A stretch of 32,660 nt of DNA, from positions 1-32,660 of the forward strand of contig CAJOOZ010000075.1 in assembly GCA_905236705.1 (NCBI GenBank). Reading direction: 5' to 3'. Of the stretch, positions 3,244 to 13,681 are shown piece after piece. The notes below the pieces were generated by a model. It was not told the origin of the DNA and did no database searches. It saw nothing but the letters and a program-made list of their open reading frames with translations. The position numbers and the translations under genes were made by a program. The stretch is from an uncultured Lachnospiraceae bacterium. Lineage in GTDB: Bacteria; Bacillota; Clostridia; Lachnospirales; Lachnospiraceae. Each line of letters opens with the position of its first letter. Position 1 is the first letter of the stretch.

Positions 3244-4695
3244 TTATACATTAATCTCCGCCTTGACACCTTTGAGTTCTTCTCTTTGGCTCATAGCCGG
3301 ATAGACAACCTCTTTAAGGTATTTTTCAACCTGTTCCGATGCCCTGCCCACATAGAGCTGCGGGTCCATGGTCTTTTCCAGATCCTCAAGGCTCAGTCCG
3401 AAGCGGTCATCGGAGGCGATCAGCTCCAGCAGATTGTTGTCTCCGCCGTCTTTCTTGACATGTTCGCCCGCCTGCATGGACAGTCTTCTGATCTCCTCAT
3501 GCATCTCCTGCCTGCTGGCGCCATGCTTGACTGCATCCATCATGATATTCTCCGTGGCCATAAAGGGAAGTTCACTCATCATATGCTTGAGGATCACTTT
3601 TTCATTGACCACAAGGCCCTCTGCCACGTTCAGGCACAGATCCAGAATACCGTCCACCGCCAGAAATCCCTCCGGAATGGAAAGACGCTTGTTGGCGGAA
3701 TCGTCAAGGGTTCTCTCAAACCACTGGGTGGCCGAAGTGATGGCGGGATTCATGGCATCCACCATGACATAGCGCGCCAGAGATGCGATACGTTCGCTGC
3801 GCATGGGGTTGCGCTTATAGGCCATCGCCGAGGAACCGATCTGATTCTTTTCAAAAGGCTCCTCCACCTCCTTCAGATGCTGAAGAAGACGGATATCGTT
3901 GCTCATTTTGTGAGCCGAGGCAGCAATGCCCGCAAGTACGTTCAACACTCTGGTATCCACTTTTCTCGAATAGGTCTGTCCGGACACGGGATAACATGAC
4001 TCAAATCCCATCCTGGCTGCGATCATGGGATCGATCCTGTCGATGGTCTCATTGTCCCCATTAAAAAGTTCCTTAAAGGAAGCCTGTGTACCCGTGGTTC
4101 CTTTTGAACCCAGCAGCTTCAGAGAGCCTGCCACATATTCCAGATCCTCCAGATCCATCATAAACTCATTGATCCAGAGAGTAGCCCTTTTGCCGACTGT
4201 GGTGGGCTGTGCAGGCTGGAAGTGCGTGAATGCAAGGGTTGGCTGATCCTTTTGGGCTTCAGCAAAACGGGAAAGAATGTCTATGACGCTGACCAGCTTT
4301 TTGCGAACCAGCATCAGCGCTTCCCGCATCACAATGATATCGGTGTTATCGCCCACATAGCAGGAAGTTGCACCCAGATGAATGATCCCTGCCGCTTTGG
4401 GACACTGTTTTCCATAGGCATAAACATGGCTCATCACATCATGGCGAACCTCTTTTTCCCTGGCCTTTGCCACATCATAGTTGATGTCATCGGCATGAGC
4501 CTTCATCTCATCGATCATCTCCTGCGTGATTACGGGCTTGCCGTTCTCGGACAATCCCAGCTCCATCTCAGTCTCCGCCAGAGCGATCCAGAGCCTTCTC
4601 CATGTTCTGAACTTTTTATCCGGCGAAAAAATGTACTGCATCTCATCGCTGGCATAGCGCTCCGAAAGGGGGCTTACATATCTGTTGTTTTCCAT
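3244..4695 (-). CDS. purB: Adenylosuccinate lyase
   Basis: Catalyses two steps of purine synthesis: SAICAR to AICAR and adenylosuccinate to AMP, each releasing fumarate. The 483-residue length matches the longer (eukaryote/clostridia-like) form. The fumarase/lyase superfamily signature GSSAMAYKRNPMRSE lies near residue 290. HLGATSCYVGDNTD and FTHFQPAQPTTVGKR in the N-terminal half contribute substrate-binding and acid residues. An AAGGAGA ribosome site lies 8 bases before the ATG. The gene is monocistronic, with its own promoter and terminator. No other purine gene is near and no riboswitch is visible in its roughly 38-base leader. Confidence 0.96.
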   Translation of the reverse strand: MENNRYVSPLSERYASDEMQYIFSPDKKFRTWRRLWIALAETEMELGLSENGKPVITQEMIDEMKAHADDINYDVAKAREKEVRHDVMSHVYAYGKQCPKAAGIIHLGATSCYVGDNTDIIVMREALMLVRKKLVSVIDILSRFAEAQKDQPTLAFTHFQPAQPTTVGKRATLWINEFMMDLEDLEYVAGSLKLLGSKGTTGTQASFKELFNGDNETIDRIDPMIAARMGFESCYPVSGQTYSRKVDTRVLNVLAGIAASAHKMSNDIRLLQHLKEVEEPFEKNQIGSSAMAYKRNPMRSERIASLARYVMVDAMNPAITSATQWFERTLDDSANKRLSIPEGFLAVDGILDLCLNVAEGLVVNEKVILKHMMSELPFMATENIMMDAVKHGASRQEMHEEIRRLSMQAGEHVKKDGGDNNLLELIASDDRFGLSLEDLEKTMDPQLYVGRASEQVEKYLKEVVYPAMSQREELKGVKAEINV

Positions 4696-4777: not shown

Positions 4778-5959
4778 CTATCCGGCCGTCTCAAAATCCG
4801 AGACCATTTTGAGGATCTCTTTGGCATATCGAGGGTATTCCGCCACAATGGAACGGATCTGTTCCTGTGCTGCCGCTGCGTTTTCGGAATTGAAATCCAG
4901 TTGTTGTCTGATCTTCTGACGACGCTGGATCAGGGCATGCCTGACCTCCACCATCTCCTTCGGATCGATGAGCGCCTGTGCCTGATGCAGCCAGATCATG
5001 GGATCGTAAAGCTTGTAGCGGCGAAGTATCCTGACCAGTTGTTCCTGGGAATAGGTCAGTTCCTTCATGTCTTCCCGTATCTTTTCCCTCTCATCTTTTT
5101 CCTCTGCATACTTTTCCCTGAGTCTCTCAAGCTCGGTTGCGGAGCTGATCCCGAATTTCATATACAGATATTCCAGAAGATTTGTATTGTTCACATAGCG
5201 GATCTTGACCCTGTTCTGCAGCAGGATCACTTTGTTCATGCTGCGCGCGGCTCTCGTCCGCTCCCTGCTGGCATCCAGATAAGACATATACACCGCTGTC
5301 ATGGCGATGGCCGCAGCGCCCGCAGTCAGCAGAAAACCGATCTGTGCATCCATCCCGAGCCCGAGCTGCAGGATCAGCAGGATCACGATACAGGCTGCCG
5401 CCGCTATGATCGTGATGATGGCCATCCCCCGCAGATTGTTCATGGATGTCTGTGCCTCATCCCTGCGAAAGATGCAGGCCTGTTTTTCTCCCTCCAGGCG
5501 TCTTAGGTCATTGCGGATCGCCTGCTGGTATTCCTCCGCTTCCTTCAGTCTGACAGCGCCCTCGTCCGACTCGTTTTCCAAACGCTGCATCCTCTCATAA
5601 TCCTCGTCGGACATACGGTTTTTCTTTTCCTCATAGCGCTGTTTATCCAGCGAAAGATGCACAATAGCTCTGGCATGCTCCATGAGCGCCTGCCTGTCAT
5701 CATTGTGAATGAACTCAATCTCCTCCATATCCTTCAGGTAGCTGTTAACGGTCTTATACTCGCTGTTACAGATTTCTACCTGCTGCGATGCGTCGGCCAC
5801 CTGTTCCAGCAGGCTCTCGATATATTTCCGCCGCTCGTACTCATCTGACAGATCAACCTCGCCGGCATCCACCAGATACTTTTCTTCATTTCCCTCTTCT
5901 TGCGCCAGCGGGTCCTCACGGTATGTGACTTTCCTGAACAGATCCTTCCAAAAGCCCAT
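4778..5959 (-). CDS. Unknown coiled-coil protein with two central membrane segments
   Basis: I do not recognise this 393-residue protein. Residues 1-40 are acidic and amphipathic (GFWKDLFRKV at the start). Residues 40-175 are charged, heptad-rich helix. Two hydrophobic helices follow at about 179-200 and 207-226, forming a hairpin in the membrane, and a second long charged helical region runs 230-393. Both coiled-coil arms should therefore lie on the same side, presumably cytoplasmic. I chose the ATG at 5959 because GAGAGGA sits upstream and the start falls 4 bases after the previous stop; a longer reading upstream to 6061 would overlap that gene with an arginine-rich tract and looks artificial. 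It is the last gene of the four-gene cassette. A membrane anchor or scaffold role is inference only. Confidence 0.8.
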   Translation of the reverse strand: MGFWKDLFRKVTYREDPLAQEEGNEEKYLVDAGEVDLSDEYERRKYIESLLEQVADASQQVEICNSEYKTVNSYLKDMEEIEFIHNDDRQALMEHARAIVHLSLDKQRYEEKKNRMSDEDYERMQRLENESDEGAVRLKEAEEYQQAIRNDLRRLEGEKQACIFRRDEAQTSMNNLRGMAIITIIAAAACIVILLILQLGLGMDAQIGFLLTAGAAAIAMTAVYMSYLDASRERTRAARSMNKVILLQNRVKIRYVNNTNLLEYLYMKFGISSATELERLREKYAEEKDEREKIREDMKELTYSQEQLVRILRRYKLYDPMIWLHQAQALIDPKEMVEVRHALIQRRQKIRQQLDFNSENAAAAQEQIRSIVAEYPRYAKEILKMVSDFETAG

Positions 5960-5963
5960 TGAT

Positions 5964-6758
5964 CTACATCCTCTCAAAATCCCGCCGCAGCGCTTCAAAC
6001 TCCGCCGCCGGATCCGGAATCGCCGCCGCCTGCAGCCTGGCGGCCGAATCGGCTCTGGCATACCTCTGTTCAGCCGCCATGGATGCTTCCAGGTATTCCC
6101 TGTGTGTTTCGATAAAATGACGATATTTTTCTTCTCCCCAGAGTATCCGCACGCAGAGCAGATACTGCTGCGATGCTTTGTTCTCCAATATCCTCATCTG
6201 CGCTTTATGCAGGATCTGCCTTGCCTGATCATAAAGTGCGGCGGCCGGTTCAAAATAAAACAGCTGCGCATAGGCGCCCGCCTGCCGCATCAATAATCCG
6301 GCTCTCACCTCGTCCGATTCAGGATTCTCCAACCGGGCCAGTGCCAGCTGACACTGCCTGATCAGTCCGTGGTATTCTCTGTCAGCGGCCAGCCGGTTCA
6401 GCCTCTTTTCCAGCTTCTGATCCGGTGTCTCATTCTCAACGCTCCTGATCCTCTCCAGCACCTCCGACAGCTGAGCCTGTGGCAGAAATTCCGCTTTTTC
6501 AAGGATCAATGCGCAAAAACCCACCAGGGTGGGCTCGCTCCTGAGTTCTTTTCTCAATTTCTGCGCCAGGGATCTGAGTGAGAGCTGATCGTAAATAAAT
6601 CCCACCAATGCTTCACTCATAAAAGATCGCTCCAGCATCTCCGTCTGCGTTACGATATAGTAGCAGAGTTCCTCAAGGGTATAGATATCGATCCCTTCCG
6701 GATTGATACGATATGGCGAATGTGCTTTTTTTCCGATCGGAAGATATACCCTGTTCAT
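5964..6758 (-). CDS. Unknown all-helical protein, TPR-like
   Basis: 264 residues with no family I recognise. Almost the whole chain reads as amphipathic helix. Residues 120-230 have the small-large residue spacing of TPR-like repeats (for example LMRQAGAYAQLFYFEPAAALYD). There is no signal peptide, membrane segment or catalytic motif. It starts 4 bases after the stop of the degenerate actin/Hsp70-like gene; its ribosome site (GAGGGAATAGAAGG) overlaps that gene's last codons, so coupling is likely. The role is probably protein-protein contact within the cassette, inferred from fold type and position only. Confidence 0.78.
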   Translation of the reverse strand: MNRVYLPIGKKAHSPYRINPEGIDIYTLEELCYYIVTQTEMLERSFMSEALVGFIYDQLSLRSLAQKLRKELRSEPTLVGFCALILEKAEFLPQAQLSEVLERIRSVENETPDQKLEKRLNRLAADREYHGLIRQCQLALARLENPESDEVRAGLLMRQAGAYAQLFYFEPAAALYDQARQILHKAQMRILENKASQQYLLCVRILWGEEKYRHFIETHREYLEASMAAEQRYARADSAARLQAAAIPDPAAEFEALRRDFERM

Positions 6759-6762
6759 CCTT

Positions 6763-8052
6763 CTATTCCCTCAATGTGATCGTGTATTCCTTTTTGGCAA
6801 AACGGGGCTGGTAAAACTGCCCGAATCCTTCATCCATAATCTCTGCCAGAAGCGTTGCGGCATCTGTCATGGAGACTCTGAGCCGGTATCTGAAAGCCCT
6901 GCCCGGACGTTCCTCCTGCTCTCCTATCACCAGTGTTTCCTCATATGTCTTGCCTGTAAAAATGGGCGTGATCAACAGCCTGATCTCATCCGGTCTGCTG
7001 AGCAGAAGTTCTGTCTGCGCCCCGGCGTCATTCCAGTGTTCTCCGGCATCCAGAAGCGGCAGGTAGCCCTCCTCCCCGTCTTCCGTGACCTGTATTCCCA
7101 CATTGCAGCGGAGCATATCCTTTCCCAGAAACAGAAAATCTTCTTTTTCCGTTCCCGGCCATATCCACTCTGCGGCAGAAAATGCAGCCCCTTTCGAGAA
7201 AAGATTGTTTCCCGCAAACACCTTTCGGTTTCTGCACATATGATGTCTGCTGACGGAATACCAGTCTTTGGTAAATGCGTCCCCGATCAGATACAGACTC
7301 GTCACGATACGTCCCTTTGTAAATTCGTCCACGTATTCGGCCAGCCGCGTATCCAGCGCCTCCAGTGCTCTGTCCTGCTCCATGATGGAATCGTAATGAT
7401 GCTTTTTTACAATCCCCGTATCATCGTCTCTTTCAATGGATGTGACAACGGGTGCAGTCCTCGGATTCATCTCCATGCAATAGGCGACCATGCGTTCATC
7501 GGTCAGATCAAAAACTCCCGTCACATAGCCAAGAAGCTTTTCCGGCTGATGGGAAAGATACGAAAACAGACTGTCCTCATGCCGCTGCAGCCTGATCTGC
7601 CCTCTCGGTATCGGCAGACCTGACAAAAGTTCATCCCAGAGAGACATCTGTCCTTCCGGATAAGGTTCTGCGGAAATCGTCATTGCAACGATCTCGGCAG
7701 CCTCTTTTTCCACCTCTTCTATGGAATGCATCGCCATACGGATCCCGTGTCCCAGAAACATATGCAGCAGTTCCTCATAGGTATAGACTTCGCCGCCGAT
7801 CCTGGTCTTCTCGCCCAGTTTGTCCAGAAAATTCCTTGCCAGATCATCCTGCCTGGTGGCAAAAACCTTCTCGGCTTCCTGTCCATAGTACCAGCGGCTG
7901 TTTCCCCGCTCGCGTCCAATGGCCAGATGCATCGTAAACAGCTGCTCGGAGGAAGGCAGGTGCAGGGTTGCCGGCGTCCCGCCCTCAGGTGCATAGGACA
8001 CCTGCATAAATAACCTGTTCAATTCCACGCCCAGAACGACCTTTTTTCCCAT
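6763..8052 (-). CDS. Actin/Hsp70-like fold protein (DUF5716-type)
   Basis: 429 residues. The layout recalls the ASKHA (actin/Hsp70) fold: LGVELNRLFMQVSY near the start at the phosphate-1 position, GVFDLTDERMVAYCME near 180 at phosphate-2, and SLYLIGDAFTKDW followed by FAGNNLFSKGAAFSA (about 252-292), which resembles the adenosine-binding strand and the GDN..ARGAA helix of Hsp70-like proteins. The usual DxGT and GGGT nucleotide signatures are not intact, so ATP hydrolysis is doubtful. I associate it with DUF5716, named from memory. I chose ATG 8052 rather than TTG 8058 because GAGG lies 7 bases upstream of the ATG. The gene follows the solenoid gene by 12 bases. Confidence 0.8.
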   Translation of the reverse strand: MGKKVVLGVELNRLFMQVSYAPEGGTPATLHLPSSEQLFTMHLAIGRERGNSRWYYGQEAEKVFATRQDDLARNFLDKLGEKTRIGGEVYTYEELLHMFLGHGIRMAMHSIEEVEKEAAEIVAMTISAEPYPEGQMSLWDELLSGLPIPRGQIRLQRHEDSLFSYLSHQPEKLLGYVTGVFDLTDERMVAYCMEMNPRTAPVVTSIERDDDTGIVKKHHYDSIMEQDRALEALDTRLAEYVDEFTKGRIVTSLYLIGDAFTKDWYSVSRHHMCRNRKVFAGNNLFSKGAAFSAAEWIWPGTEKEDFLFLGKDMLRCNVGIQVTEDGEEGYLPLLDAGEHWNDAGAQTELLLSRPDEIRLLITPIFTGKTYEETLVIGEQEERPGRAFRYRLRVSMTDAATLLAEIMDEGFGQFYQPRFAKKEYTITLRE

Positions 8053-8064
8053 TTTCAAGCCTCA

Positions 8065-11000
8065 TCATTCAGCAAAAAGCTGCTGCGTCAGTTTTTCCAG
8101 TCTCATATATTCCGTCTCTTTCAAAACGGCATCCTCTTTTTTGCCTTCCTTCAGATCCAGGCTGATGGCATCCAGTCTGTCATATCTGCCCAGGCTACCG
8201 GCTCTGCCGCCGACTGCCTCGATCTGTCCGCTCTGTGTCAGTACCATATCCCTGTGGTTTTCCTCCTGGATATAGTAATGGATGCTCTCACCCGAGAACA
8301 GCACAAATTCTCTGCAATAGTATCCCGGACAGAGCTCGGCCAGGGGTCTGATCTGATAGCTCTCCTGTCCGGCCGCACCTCCCAGAAAGCTGACTCTCAC
8401 ATTTCTTCCGGGAGCGGATCTGTAAACCAGCCAGCTGTAGGCCGTGAAGGGCAGGAGCCTCGGCTCAAGCTGCGCATAGGGCTCCATCAGTGGCAGATAG
8501 CCGCCGTCGTTGAGCTGCTCATCGATCAGCCTGAGCGCCAGCCTTGCCTGCTGCTGCGAAAAATCATCAATCCCGCCGGCTTTTTCGTCCAGCCAGACAA
8601 TGCGGCACAGCCTCGGCATATCCTCCGTTTCCATAAGCTGTTTTTCCAGCATATCGATGTTTCTGTTGCTCAGCACCTCTCCGCCTACAAAGCACTTAAA
8701 GCAAAGATCCTGGAGAAATCTCTTTTTCTTGTCTTCGCTTCCTCCGTTTTCGGAATAGTATTGAAATACCGCATCCCACTGTGGCAGATAGCCATGGCTG
8801 AACACAGCTGCCGTCAGTATCCTCTCGGCAACATCAAGCGCAGGCACATCCAGCGCCAGCGCATCCTGAAAGATCTGTACCATCTGGCTGATGCCGCCTT
8901 CATAATACTGACACAGATATTCCAGAAGCTGCGGCGTGTATTTGCCCTGTTTGTAGGTATAGTACATCAGCGCGATCCAGCGCGCATCTTCTTCCACCTG
9001 CTCGTCCAGTGCACGCATGATAAGCCTGTTCAGGCTCTTGACAGGGACCCCTTCAAAGCCGTAATCCCAGAGAAGCGAAAGCGCCATTTCATCCTGTTCC
9101 AGCAGAATGTGATATGTAATGATCCTGCCTCTCTTTTTTTCATCGGCGCCCTCGATGGGATATTCATTCAAAAGTTCGAGCATGGTCTGCGTTTCGTCCC
9201 TGTCGTAAAGGACCGCCAACAGTCTCTCCACGATGGACCGGCGCAGGGAAAAGGAAATCCTGGGATCCCTGGCTGCTTCCATATACAGCGGCCAGTCCTC
9301 AGTCCGTCTCATAAAATCATCTTCCGTGCCGGAGAGCCTGAGCAGTGACAGCTCGCTGGAGGTCTGCTCAGATTCGAGAAGATACTTTCTCACCTTGTCC
9401 GGCGACAGTAGCCTTTTCAGTCTGATATCCTGACCTGCCTCATGGCGGTTGCCGTTTTCGTCCTCCAGAAGAAGACAGACATCCTCCGAGACCATCTCCA
9501 CCATCGCCACTTTATTTTCAATGGCAAAACTCTTTTCCGTCTCAAGTCCGTGTTCGAGCACGATCACCTTTTTGGCATCCGCAGCCGTCACCGAAGCCTC
9601 CTGCATGAAGGCCAGCGGCAACAGATAGGGCACGGCTGCCTCAATCTCTTTTTCGTCCCTGAACAGAAATCTGTAGCAGGCAGCCAGATCCGGACTGATC
9701 TCACCGGTCAGAAGCTCCTTTCTGGCAAAATCCCGAATCTGCGGATCGTATTTGTCGATCAAAGACCCAAGCTTTGTATGATTCTCCAGTATGATCCTAT
9801 AAAGATGCGCTTTTAATCTCTTTTCAAGGGTACACTGATAGGCAAAATAAAGAAGAACATATTTGGGCGGAAGGCTCAGATCCTCCATGCTCCTGGATGC
9901 AATATAGGATTCATACAGCAGGGTGATGCGAAGCTGTTTATCCACCGCCCTGCCAAACCAGAAACCGGCACCTTCGTCCGTCTTCTGGCAACGGATCAAA
10001 AGACCGCAGACCGCCTGCAGCAGCTCGTCATCTCCAAAGGTGTCATACAGCCTTTTCAAAAAGCCCATAAGAGCCCTACCTGCCTCTTTTTCCTTTTTGA
10101 CCAGCTCTGTGATCCTGGCCGTCAGAGCCGGCGTCAGCAGTTCATATCGCATGGCAAACTGCATAACGGCAATCTCGAACCTGCCCAGTGAGGACATATA
10201 TGTCGGATTGTCACCGATCACACGAAAAGCCTCTCTGAACAGGATCGGACTCTCGCATCCGTTGTAATAACATTCTTCATACAGGGAGATCATCTGAACA
10301 GGCGTGATCTGACCCTGGGGAAGCATCCTTAGATACAGGCTGGTAACAATGGCATCTCCTCTGTGATTGGCCAGCAGATCCCTGATCCTCCTGACGGCAC
10401 CGGACTGCATCCTCTGATAGTCCACATCGCGCACGCCGCCTCTGGCCAGCATCGACTCCAGATACCAGTAATAGGACATCTGTGACGCTGACACCTCTTC
10501 ATTTTCGATCACCCGTTCCACATGGCTGAAGATCCATCCTGCCTCCTGGAATCGGCCCATGGCACAGAGCAGATGGGTCTGATACAACCTGCCGTCTATA
10601 TTCCTGCCATCACTCTGATTGATCTTTTCAATACATTTTTCGGCTCTCTCAAGCGCTTTTTGCTGATCGCCGTGTCCTGTGGAATAGTCCAGATATGCCC
10701 TGATCAATTCGGCTGTTTTGCGCTTTTTCTCCCTGCGCGCCTGTTCTCTGACGTCTTCTTTTTGCTGTTTGCCGATCCGTACCAGTTCACAGACAAGTGT
10801 ACCGGAAGGAGAATGTGTATCGATCAGCAATTTTTCACGATGCTCAAATCCGTCGGTGGGAAGCAGATAAAAAGACAGATGACAGACCTGGTCCTCAAAA
10901 TCATCATCTGTCAAAAGTGTTCTGTCCAGACTGATATAAGAGCCTTCCACGCTAAGTGACAGATGGGTATATCCCCAGCCCTTACGACGGATGGTAAGCA

Positions 11001-11634
11001 CCTGCTCCTGCGGCTCATAGACCTGCGGCAGCAAAAGCGTTTCCTCATCGATCGTGTAGCTTGCTCTCTGCTTTTTATTCAGACTGATCAGAAATTCATC
11101 GACATTTTTTTCATTGCCTCTGATATGTGACATCCCGCGATATAATGGGATCAGCCTGCTGTCATGACCTGTCAGCAGTTTTTCGAAACGTTCCGAATAA
11201 AACAGATCGCAGGCCGCCTTCCAGTCAGTGGATGCCAGATTGGTGAAGTGAAAAAGATTCCGGATGCGTCCGAGGGTCTCATCCTCATAGCTGTCGGAGA
11301 CCGTAACACAAAAAGGGATCTGGAGCTGTCCAATATCGGTCAGGATCACGAGCTTTCCCCTGACACAGCTTCCCACGCTGAGTCCTACGGCATCAAAACG
11401 ATAGGTGATATGAATCTCCTCACCGTTGGCATAAGATGCCTGGGGCTGCATCCTGTAATGTGTCGAATACAAAAACGCCCTGATCCTTCTACCTGTATCT
11501 GCACGCAGGAAAAGAGAGCCTTCCACTTTCTTGCCCTCCAACACGACAAGCTCCAGCTCTCTTGGCGTACACTCCAGTGTATCCTCGGTATATTCAAATG
11601 TTTCCGCCGGAATGAGTCCACTTATCCTATACAT
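8065..11634 (-). CDS. Giant helical-repeat protein with beta-rich ends (DUF5717-type)
   Basis: 1189 residues, the largest gene here. Residues 1 to about 115 and about 210-285 look like beta-sandwich modules (alternating V/L/I strands such as VEGSLFLRAD and LTIRRKGWGYTHLSLSV). Residues about 290-1040 are a long run of helix pairs of solenoid type (EAGWIFSHVERVI, MALSLLWDYGFEGV). The last 130 residues are beta-rich again with FSGESIHYYIQEE. There is no signal peptide or membrane segment, so it is presumably cytoplasmic and partner-bound. I associate it with DUF5717, recalled rather than searched. No Shine-Dalgarno precedes the ATG, and an extended -10 box lies 7 bases upstream, so the mRNA may be leaderless. 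Function unknown. Confidence 0.85.
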   Translation of the reverse strand: MYRISGLIPAETFEYTEDTLECTPRELELVVLEGKKVEGSLFLRADTGRRIRAFLYSTHYRMQPQASYANGEEIHITYRFDAVGLSVGSCVRGKLVILTDIGQLQIPFCVTVSDSYEDETLGRIRNLFHFTNLASTDWKAACDLFYSERFEKLLTGHDSRLIPLYRGMSHIRGNEKNVDEFLISLNKKQRASYTIDEETLLLPQVYEPQEQVLTIRRKGWGYTHLSLSVEGSYISLDRTLLTDDDFEDQVCHLSFYLLPTDGFEHREKLLIDTHSPSGTLVCELVRIGKQQKEDVREQARREKKRKTAELIRAYLDYSTGHGDQQKALERAEKCIEKINQSDGRNIDGRLYQTHLLCAMGRFQEAGWIFSHVERVIENEEVSASQMSYYWYLESMLARGGVRDVDYQRMQSGAVRRIRDLLANHRGDAIVTSLYLRMLPQGQITPVQMISLYEECYYNGCESPILFREAFRVIGDNPTYMSSLGRFEIAVMQFAMRYELLTPALTARITELVKKEKEAGRALMGFLKRLYDTFGDDELLQAVCGLLIRCQKTDEGAGFWFGRAVDKQLRITLLYESYIASRSMEDLSLPPKYVLLYFAYQCTLEKRLKAHLYRIILENHTKLGSLIDKYDPQIRDFARKELLTGEISPDLAACYRFLFRDEKEIEAAVPYLLPLAFMQEASVTAADAKKVIVLEHGLETEKSFAIENKVAMVEMVSEDVCLLLEDENGNRHEAGQDIRLKRLLSPDKVRKYLLESEQTSSELSLLRLSGTEDDFMRRTEDWPLYMEAARDPRISFSLRRSIVERLLAVLYDRDETQTMLELLNEYPIEGADEKKRGRIITYHILLEQDEMALSLLWDYGFEGVPVKSLNRLIMRALDEQVEEDARWIALMYYTYKQGKYTPQLLEYLCQYYEGGISQMVQIFQDALALDVPALDVAERILTAAVFSHGYLPQWDAVFQYYSENGGSEDKKKRFLQDLCFKCFVGGEVLSNRNIDMLEKQLMETEDMPRLCRIVWLDEKAGGIDDFSQQQARLALRLIDEQLNDGGYLPLMEPYAQLEPRLLPFTAYSWLVYRSAPGRNVRVSFLGGAAGQESYQIRPLAELCPGYYCREFVLFSGESIHYYIQEENHRDMVLTQSGQIEAVGGRAGSLGRYDRLDAISLDLKEGKKEDAVLKETEYMRLEKLTQQLFAE

Positions 11635-11641
11635 AGGAATA

Positions 11642-11670
11642 AGTATATCACATTTCCGGCGGATTTGAAA
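11642..11670 (-). promoter_or_regulatory. Candidate promoter giving a leaderless mRNA for the solenoid gene
   Basis: On minus, TATACT (11642-11647) preceded by TGA makes an extended -10. A weak TTTCAA (11665-11670) lies 17 bases upstream. Only 7 bases separate the -10 from the ATG at 11634, so transcription would begin at or next to the start codon, in line with the missing ribosome site. Confidence 0.5.
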
Positions 11671-11678
11671 TACAAGTA

Positions 11679-12515
11679 TTAGTCGAGATTCAGTTTATTT
11701 TTCATAAAATGATTGGAAAGTGCATACAGCCCGGCGGAGGCGGCCAGCATTGCCAGATCAATGATCAGGAAAATGAGCAACACCGTATTTTCCGCCGTTT
11801 CCAGGTTGGCGAGAGTATTCGTTTCACCCATTCTGACCAGGCTGAAGGTGACGGTCTCCGTCACGATATTGGTGATCAGACTGACCAGCACGTTCAGACC
11901 GATATAGCACCCGACACACCAGAGCACTTTATTCTTGCCCATCTGCTGTCCGATACTGATCGCTGCATACCCTTTGGACACATCAAAAGCCAGACTTCCG
12001 ACGATACCCAGCAGGATCAGAATGATGACCAGAATCGCCTGTCCCGAACTCATATGTATCTCTCTGAAGGCGTTTACCAATTCACCCCAAGCCTCTGGGC
12101 CACCCATGGAATAGAGCAGCATGATCACGGCAATACAGCAGACCAGGATACAAATCCCTCTCCAGATCATGGCAACCGCAGCCTTGGAGATCAAAAGGTC
12201 AGAGCTTTCAACCGGCAGAGTATGCATCAGATAACCCTGATCGGTATAGAGATTTCTGTAAAATCTCACAAAGAAATACAAAAGCGATAACACACTCAGC
12301 ACAACGATACCGATGGCATATACCAAAAAGTAGGAGAAAAATCCAATGGTAGGCGCAAGCGAATTGCCTCTGCCGCTTCCCTCAAAAAACGTATCAACAT
12401 TCTTTTGGTTAAAAATGATCATACCAATCAATGCATACAAAATCATCGCTGCATTGACAATGGTCATCAGTTTCCAGGTATCCTTCCATTCGTGAGCAAA
12501 TAATTTTTTTAACAT
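11679..12515 (-). CDS. ABC transporter permease
   Basis: 278 residues with six hydrophobic helices at about 17-36, 60-82, 113-137, 160-178, 200-222 and 245-267. The loop DQGYLMHTLPVESSDLLISK after TM2 is typical of ABC-2-like permeases paired with GntR/YtrA units in Firmicutes. The ATG overlaps the end of the ATPase gene by 7 bases (ATGTTAA), so the two are translationally coupled. Substrate unknown; relatives respond to cell-wall or peptide stress, but nothing here fixes that. Confidence 0.88.
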   Translation of the reverse strand: MLKKLFAHEWKDTWKLMTIVNAAMILYALIGMIIFNQKNVDTFFEGSGRGNSLAPTIGFFSYFLVYAIGIVVLSVLSLLYFFVRFYRNLYTDQGYLMHTLPVESSDLLISKAAVAMIWRGICILVCCIAVIMLLYSMGGPEAWGELVNAFREIHMSSGQAILVIILILLGIVGSLAFDVSKGYAAISIGQQMGKNKVLWCVGCYIGLNVLVSLITNIVTETVTFSLVRMGETNTLANLETAENTVLLIFLIIDLAMLAASAGLYALSNHFMKNKLNLD

Positions 12516-13210
12516 GCGAACACCTCCCTGAAATACTGATCCACTGTCTTGCCTACCTTTTCGCGGATCTCGTCCACGCCGGCTCTCAGAACAACATTGC
12601 CGGAGCGTAAAAAGATCACATCATCCAGAATATTTTCCACATCCGAGATCAGATGCGTGCAGATGAGCACACTGGCATCCGGGTTGTAATTGGAAATGAT
12701 TGTACGGATGATATAATCCCTGGCAGCCGGATCAACGCCGGCAATAGGCTCATCCAGGATAAAAAGCCTTGCATCCCTGCTCATGACCAGGATCAGCTGT
12801 ATCTTTTCTTTTGTACCTTTGGAAAGAGTTTTCAGCCTGGCATTTTTCTCAATCCCCAGAGATGCGATCATATCATACGCTCTCTCCGGTCTGAAATCTT
12901 CATAAAAATCATCAAAAAAGTTGATGATATCCTCTACCGTTCTCTGCGCCTCCAGATAGGTCCGCTCCGGCAGGTAGGATATGATGGCCTTACTCTGCGT
13001 TCCGGGCTTCTGTCCTTCTATCAGCACTTCTCCGCTGGTCGGTATCAGAAGACCGTTTATCATCTTGATCAAAGTCGTCTTTCCGCTGCCGTTGGGTCCC
13101 AAAAGACCTATGATCCTGCCGCTTTCCAGCGTCAGATTCAGATTGGCAACAGCCGGACGACCGTTGGTATAACACTTGGTCAGATCGCGGCATTCTACGA
13201 TTAAACTCAT
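12509..13210 (-). CDS. ABC transporter ATP-binding protein
   Basis: 233-residue nucleotide-binding subunit. Walker A is GPNGSGKTT, the Q-loop region is followed by the signature LSKGTKEKIQL (a variant of LSGGQ), Walker B is LFILDEP, with the D-loop GVDP and the switch histidine in CTHL. It energises the adjacent permease. I chose the ATG at 13210 (MSLIVECRDL) because AGGAGGG lies 6 bases upstream; the longer reading from 13228 would place the start inside the GntR stop region. It begins 14 bases after the GntR gene. Confidence 0.94.
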   Translation of the reverse strand: MSLIVECRDLTKCYTNGRPAVANLNLTLESGRIIGLLGPNGSGKTTLIKMINGLLIPTSGEVLIEGQKPGTQSKAIISYLPERTYLEAQRTVEDIINFFDDFYEDFRPERAYDMIASLGIEKNARLKTLSKGTKEKIQLILVMSRDARLFILDEPIAGVDPAARDYIIRTIISNYNPDASVLICTHLISDVENILDDVIFLRSGNVVLRAGVDEIREKVGKTVDQYFREVFAC

Positions 13211-13224
13211 TCTTTCCCTCCTTA

Positions 13225-13614
13225 TCATAACTCTCCGGTATCATATTTGCTTTTGCTACCGGCAACTCTCTGTACCAGATTCACACCATCTCCGGCGTCC
13301 ATTCCCAGGCCTTCCAGCTTGGTCAGATAAATTTCCGTCTCTTCCACCGCGATGGAATCCAGCATTTTTCCGATGAGCTGCTCATCCTCGGTCACAGTCT
13401 TGCCATTGGTTCGCTGGGTATGCAAAAGTCCTTCTCTTTCAAGATCTCCAAGGGCCTTCTGCATCGTATTGGGATTCACGCCGGCCTCGGCAGCCAGATC
13501 GCGAACCGACGGGATCTTGCTCCCCGGCGGATATTCACCGGATACAATACGCATCTTCAGCCGTTCTACTATCTGTATGTAGATCGGTCTGTCAGTTTTC
13601 ATTTCCCATGCCAT
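13225..13614 (-). CDS. GntR-family regulator (YtrA type)
   Basis: 129 residues. The N-terminal winged helix-turn-helix is clear: PIYIQIVERLKMRIVSGEYPPGSKIPSVRDLA, then AGVNPNTMQKALGDLEREGLL. There is only a short C-terminal dimerisation tail, as in the YtrA subfamily, and no effector-binding domain. The start at 13614 (MAWEMKTDRPIYIQ) has AGGAGGGAGAG directly before it; the longer reading adds a lysine-rich stretch that covers this ribosome site. It is first in the operon with the ABC genes and very likely represses its own promoter through the inverted repeat at 13682-13703. Confidence 0.93.
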   Translation of the reverse strand: MAWEMKTDRPIYIQIVERLKMRIVSGEYPPGSKIPSVRDLAAEAGVNPNTMQKALGDLEREGLLHTQRTNGKTVTEDEQLIGKMLDSIAVEETEIYLTKLEGLGMDAGDGVNLVQRVAGSKSKYDTGEL

Positions 13615-13681
13615 ACTCTCCCTCCTTTTCTTTTTCATAACACAGTACAAATTGTTGTTTGTTTTGCCTTGCGCTGTACTT

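Follow-up and report, generated by a model that had tools for sequence, protein, structure and literature searches.

The locus considered here raises the question of what a set of four closely spaced genes might do whose products carry no intact enzyme motif and whose function is uncharacterised. It lies in a window of 32,660 nucleotides (the whole stretch of DNA that was analysed) from an uncultured Lachnospiraceae bacterium and had been described, from the sequence alone, as a cassette built around a giant solenoid and a degenerate actin/Hsp70-like protein. The four reading frames are open on the minus strand exactly as claimed in this original prediction, encode products of 1189, 429, 264 and 393 residues in gene order and are separated by gaps of 12, 4 and 4 bases; the reported lack of an enzyme motif was borne out as well. 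The features are as follows.

8065–11634, minus strand: DUF5717 protein, 1189 aa (PF18984, E 6.9e-198; PF18983, E 4.8e-55), with a beta-rich N-terminus (~1–290), a helical solenoid (~300–880) and the DUF5717 C-terminal domain (884–1187)
6763–8052, minus strand: DUF5716 protein, 429 aa (PF18980, DUF5716_C, E 1.7e-70)
7380–7400, minus strand: site of a ~70-residue deletion in the DUF5716 protein (residues ~218–225, approximate and alignment-dependent), placed by motif spacing
6775–7125, minus strand: SBD-beta-like domain of the DUF5716 protein (residues ~310–426), placed by alignment to Hsp70-3 ~405–530
5964–6758, minus strand: TPR protein, 264 aa (family profile against designed TPR proteins in the PDB, E 2.8e-31)
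4778–5959, minus strand: coiled-coil protein, 393 aa, including a two-helix membrane hairpin (the large operon described below has a homologue)
5285–5440, minus strand: predicted transmembrane hairpin of the coiled-coil protein (residues ~174–225; Kyte-Doolittle 19-residue windows above 1.6)

Weak GAGG-type Shine-Dalgarno sequences were found for genes 2 to 4 within the respective preceding gene (gatGAGGcttgaaaATG, ttGAGGgaatagaaggATG and gaGAGGatgtagatcaATG), as had been proposed; none was found before the solenoid gene at 8065–11634. At 11634–11651, 7 nt separate the end of a TGTGATATACT box from the solenoid-gene ATG, and the same arrangement is present in L032, a Lachnospiraceae MAG which represents the nearest record to the cassette (66% identity). 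Judged from the proximity of this box to the ATG and the missing Shine-Dalgarno sequence, the solenoid-gene mRNA is possibly near-leaderless.

The first two products are plain members of the Pfam families DUF5717 and DUF5716, which are names only; their scores are 660 and 187 bits versus a gathering cut-off of 25 for DUF5717, and 238 bits versus 34.7 for DUF5716. The product described as a solenoid matches both DUF5717_N and the DUF5717 C-terminal domain and is also recognised by the split-gene profiles for the beta protein (E 1.5e-83) and the solenoid (E 6e-234). The beta-domain profile gave nothing significant against the PDB. The TPR-like, all-helical character of the third product agrees with the family profile, and its single sequence has no Pfam or NCBIfam family match. 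In the fourth product, two adjoining hydrophobic stretches are flanked by coiled-coil segments, as anticipated, and again no Pfam or NCBIfam family was matched; NCBIfam has no name for any of the four proteins. Among open-licence PMC papers, none was found on DUF5717 or on either operon form discussed below, and the single match for DUF5716 was an unrelated curcuma paper.

According to profile comparisons, the DUF5716 protein is an Hsp70 derivative composed of an NBD and an SBD-beta, without a lid. Its family profile matches DnaK structures (E 2e-4), and in a profile–profile comparison (hhalign) the family alignment, which contained one large-operon sequence, matched Hsp70-3 of the large operon over residues 4–422, SBD-beta included (prob 99.7, E 5e-27). 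The earlier assignment as an ASKHA-like protein without intact phosphate motifs is thus sustained with respect to the degenerate motifs, but the protein is a relative of Hsp70 with an SBD-beta and not generically actin-like. In the window protein, VELNRLF stands for the phosphate-1 motif DLGTTN, DLTDER for the phosphate-2 motif DLGGGT and GDAFTK for the adenosine motif GGSTR; the lysine of SIKR is missing, and HED is found where NEP with the catalytic glutamate is expected. Such a loss of motifs would be compatible with weak nucleotide binding. In the SBD-beta-like domain, the DxGFG motif is conserved, as seen in conserved alignment columns. Only 4–16 residues follow the position of DnaK 501 in the Lachnospiraceae proteins, and 0–13 in Hsp70-1, -2 and -3, so that the C-terminal lid is absent; in Hsp70-4 its place is taken by vWA. 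Structure prediction without usable alignments gave only low confidence, with a mean pLDDT of 32 for the protein alone and of 38 together with its nearest homologue.

Outside Lachnospiraceae but within the order, 20 loci encode homologues of the solenoid and DUF5716 proteins as part of a longer operon; some of these loci are incomplete, as several run off the contig or the fetched stretch. The genes of the longer operon encode, in order, a ~400-aa beta protein, a ~900-aa solenoid, Hsp70-1, a helical protein of 280–645 aa, the DUF5716 orthologue (Hsp70-2), Hsp70-3, Hsp70-4, a ~390-aa TPR protein and, in L085, L184, L186 and L187, a coiled-coil protein. By genome, the coiled-coil gene was found in the large operon of G007, G123, G098 and G003 and not in that of G038, G024, G090, G080, G049 and G104. 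The beta and solenoid genes are usually split and sometimes fused in the other families, and almost always fused in Lachnospiraceae. In Hsp70-1, -3 and -4, phosphate-1, phosphate-2 and the catalytic lysine and glutamate are intact, and the adenosine loop is largely so. All seven helical proteins that were tested terminate in a GrpE domain (E 1e-14 to 4e-6, all above the Pfam cut-off) and Hsp70-4 bears a C-terminal vWA domain in all three tested; a second GrpE is present in four large-operon genomes. The fusion of a lidless Hsp70 with vWA, as at L085:12517–14676 and L188:9287–11362, is an unusual domain combination. The last two large-operon genes are homologous to the TPR and coiled-coil genes of the window: the TPR protein is a shortened relative of the ~390-aa protein (hhalign to that of L085, E 1.5e-16), and the coiled-coil protein is matched by phmmer (E 3e-14) and by hhalign to L184 (E 8.7e-25). 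Furthermore, both forms share flanking genes, namely a class I/II aminotransferase gene (12/20 large-operon and 37/62 Lachnospiraceae loci) and valS (4/20 and 8/62, respectively), which argues for descent of one locus. The cassette is a conserved unit, and it is a shortened version of an operon that has three further Hsp70s with intact motifs and a protein carrying a GrpE domain.

The large operon resembles the DnaK-GrpE system in its intact Hsp70s and GrpE domain, and DUF5716 is homologous to DnaK over NBD and SBD-beta. It differs in having four lidless Hsp70 paralogues, one of them ATPase-dead and one fused to vWA, in a GrpE domain attached to a long helical protein and in lacking a J domain (none by Pfam in the window cassette and the nine-gene operon L085); the Lachnospiraceae form, moreover, has no active part at all. 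Specialised DnaK duplicates are known from bacteria, including one in a Myxococcus operon with its own GrpE (PMC11019930); unlike DUF5716, these paralogues are full-length and active, and Clostridia and Lachnospiraceae are unmentioned in that text.

The inactivation of DUF5716 is older than the reduction of the operon. Orthologues in every family lack the catalytic lysine, the glutamate and the phosphate-2 residues, which places the defect before Lachnospiraceae, and the motif GxGFExxW which replaces the adenosine loop in these proteins argues for their orthology independently of any tree. Phylogenetic analysis of 92 Hsp70s gave one clade each for Hsp70-1, Hsp70-3, Hsp70-4 and DnaK, and separated the DUF5716 proteins as a whole from the remaining Hsp70s with a support of 100. 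The Lachnospiraceae DUF5716 proteins constitute one clade (99) adjoining the DUF5716 protein of family f4 (99), although the DUF5716 branches are so long that the branching order among these proteins is uncertain. The subtree of housekeeping DnaK likewise places f4 next to Lachnospiraceae (99).

A second change is confined to Lachnospiraceae. The spacing between phosphate-2 and the adenosine motif amounts to 60–80 residues in 61/61 family proteins versus 133–182 in 70 other Hsp70s; about 70 residues of NBD subdomain IIB are gone in all 61 and retained in all large-operon orthologues. By alignment, and with an offset of 25 chosen here for conversion to E. coli numbering, the deletion corresponds approximately to E. 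coli DnaK 244–301. GrpE contacts DnaK at 255–272 and 276–302 (PMC10825016). The deleted lobe is the equivalent of IIB, the GrpE-contact lobe; the exchange factor is missing along with the lobe that it contacts. A profile search of 100 Lachnospiraceae genera detected no Hsp70-3, the best score being 193 bits versus 952–1106 for true Hsp70-3; the matches up to this score are DnaK and other Hsp70s. As the family nearest to Lachnospiraceae, in the DUF5716 part of the tree as well as in that of DnaK, is f4, which has the large operon, the events are most simply explained by loss on the Lachnospiraceae stem, and the succession from the large operon to the reduced form is well supported by these comparisons.

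What was retained is highly conserved. DUF5716 is present in 244/250 Lachnospiraceae genera and nearly always in single copy (199/202 good genomes). The 62 family loci read directly show the solenoid gene next to the DUF5716 gene in 61 cases (median gap 17 bases) and the DUF5716 gene next to the TPR gene in 60 (median gap 1 base), an arrangement that does not arise by chance; the misses are due to one locus at a contig end and to ORF-calling artefacts. The expected contiguity accordingly holds for the first three genes in nearly all loci, but not for the coiled-coil gene, which is next in order in only 33/62 and was found in 44/100 genera (a count that excludes one match at E 1e-4). The cassette is hence a three-gene core (DUF5717, DUF5716, TPR) with an optional fourth gene. 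Homologues occur in about half of the genomes within the order; outside it, a class-wide sample of 245 genomes contained no relatives except one hit below the Pfam cut-off. In one Lachnospiraceae locus (L082, genome G102), the solenoid protein has only 853 aa and is unmatched by the beta-protein profile, with the other core genes intact.

On the basis of these data we propose the following scenario. The ancestral machine would have consisted of a solenoid platform, three active lidless Hsp70s (one with vWA), a GrpE-domain exchange factor, a dead Hsp70 and a TPR protein, with a membrane coiled coil as a further part in some genomes. On the Lachnospiraceae stem, the active Hsp70s and the GrpE protein would have been lost, and the dead Hsp70 would have lost the lobe held by GrpE. 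The retained set of solenoid, pseudo-Hsp70 and TPR protein might form a complex which most likely functions without ATP, with the solenoid providing the platform, the pseudo-Hsp70 binding proteins or peptides as a fixed module via its SBD-beta and the TPR protein acting as adaptor. In genera with flagella, addition of the two-TM coiled coil would bring the complex to the inner membrane face, connected with the flagellum. That the cassette is what is left of a dedicated multi-Hsp70 machine, of which the remaining set likely acts as an ATP-independent scaffold, we consider rather probable. The more far-reaching version, a family-wide ATP-independent organising complex derived from a stripped four-Hsp70 machine and tied to the flagellum by the membrane coiled coil in motile genera, is put forward only tentatively. 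If true, it would establish a class of Hsp70-derived structural machine without described counterpart. The findings as a whole offer a testable identity for DUF5716 and DUF5717 and for their operon, which is among the most conserved without annotation in Lachnospiraceae, a dominant gut family. The locus also resembles a natural experiment, as the ATP-using Hsp70s and the exchange factor were apparently lost and the dead paralogue was strongly retained while shedding its exchange-factor lobe; the use of a dead Hsp70 thereby becomes directly testable.

Alternatively, the pseudo-Hsp70 and the TPR protein might be co-chaperones or regulators of the housekeeping DnaK, either Hsp110-like or as adaptors, in which case the solenoid would be a receptor for clients. 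Chaperone networks typically include TPR and SBD-beta modules, and the single DnaK and single GrpE of the window's genome, which also encodes two MreB-like proteins, would be available as partners. However, the lobe for interaction with an Hsp70 relative or an exchange factor is deleted, the operon is devoid of a J domain, and no CIRCE element lies upstream of any locus, so that there is no sign of HrcA-type heat-shock control. We regard a role in the service of DnaK as unlikely.

A second alternative, in which the entire cassette is a system for flagellar assembly or placement, draws on the distribution of the fourth gene. Over 100 genera, the coiled-coil gene and FliG are both present in 44, FliG only in 9 and neither in 47, the coiled-coil gene never occurring without FliG (Fisher p 1.3e-19, kinship uncorrected); FliG is thus found in 44/44 coiled-coil-positive and 9/56 coiled-coil-negative genera. 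One of the nine FliG-only genomes (G172) has no DUF5716 anywhere in its assembly. In the other eight, FliG scores 129–135 bits versus 146–157 for the full-length FliG of coiled-coil-positive genomes, which suggests two flagellar lineages in Lachnospiraceae, the lower-scoring 'type 2' having been defined after the scores were seen and not used as a test. These lower-scoring genomes without the coiled-coil gene are G158, G160, G181, G189, G193, G200, G219 and G227. The best DnaK tree implies 12 changes in the coiled-coil gene, and well-supported branches provide only four independent pairs, all concordant and none contrary (sign test p 0.125, underpowered). The association is strong and its independence from kinship not yet proven; the co-occurrence suggests where a phenotype may be sought. 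With the core in 244/250 genera versus FliG in 53/100, only the fourth gene follows flagella, and a flagellar role of the whole cassette is quite improbable. The same distribution bears on the membrane scaffold originally envisaged: since the cassette can do without its membrane subunit, whose occurrence goes with that of flagella, this idea is not general and could apply only to genera carrying the coiled-coil gene.

A conflict or anti-phage system akin to the chaperone-containing GTPase systems would be suggested by gene content. In the GAP1-N2 GTPase-centric systems, Hsp70 and GrpE are found together with an Hsp70 that has no peptide-binding domain, with TPR or DnaJ and with vWA components (Kaur et al. 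2020, PMC7159879), and Hsp70, GrpE, TPR and vWA components are likewise neighbours in the large operon. In contrast to those variable conflict loci, the present operon is a vertically inherited core operon with four Hsp70s, in which no GTPase, FNIII or DnaJ was found; Pfam scans of the window cassette and of the nine-gene operon L085 gave no GAP1/TRAFAC GTPase component. PADLOC matched none of the four window proteins, and the active Hsp70s gave generic Hsp70 cross-matches only. A defence system was rejected on these grounds, the near-universal, single-copy occurrence between common flanking genes being unlike mobile defence loci, and retains very little credibility. A sporulation or envelope-remodelling module, although in keeping with the restriction to one Clostridia order with many spore formers, is highly improbable and was rejected as sole role, since the core, which follows neither flagella nor sporulation, is present in SpoIVA-negative genera including the window's own genome and the coiled-coil gene is independent of SpoIVA (29/15/35/21, p 0.83).

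Two sets of neighbouring genes were considered as further parts of the cassette and rejected. A GntR regulator, an ABC ATPase and a permease upstream (11679–13650), weakly like staphylococcal PmtR/PmtA export and far below the NCBIfam cut-offs, neighbour the cassette in its nearest relatives only. The purB gene downstream (3244–4695) is found within ~8 kb downstream in 23/62 family loci and 0/20 loci of other families. Membership in a heat-shock regulon was also rejected, the best CIRCE candidate in any upstream region having 6 of 18 mismatches; the cassette promoters look vegetative, with TATAAT boxes. A palindrome TATAAT-N1..3-ATTATA, which the window itself lacks, is located 20–90 bp before the solenoid gene in 21/61 family loci (among them L065, L068, L070, L073, L074, L076, L147 and L148), compared with 0.1 expected from shuffles. 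It looks like two back-to-back -10 boxes, presumably a bidirectional promoter which the divergent aminotransferase gene also uses.
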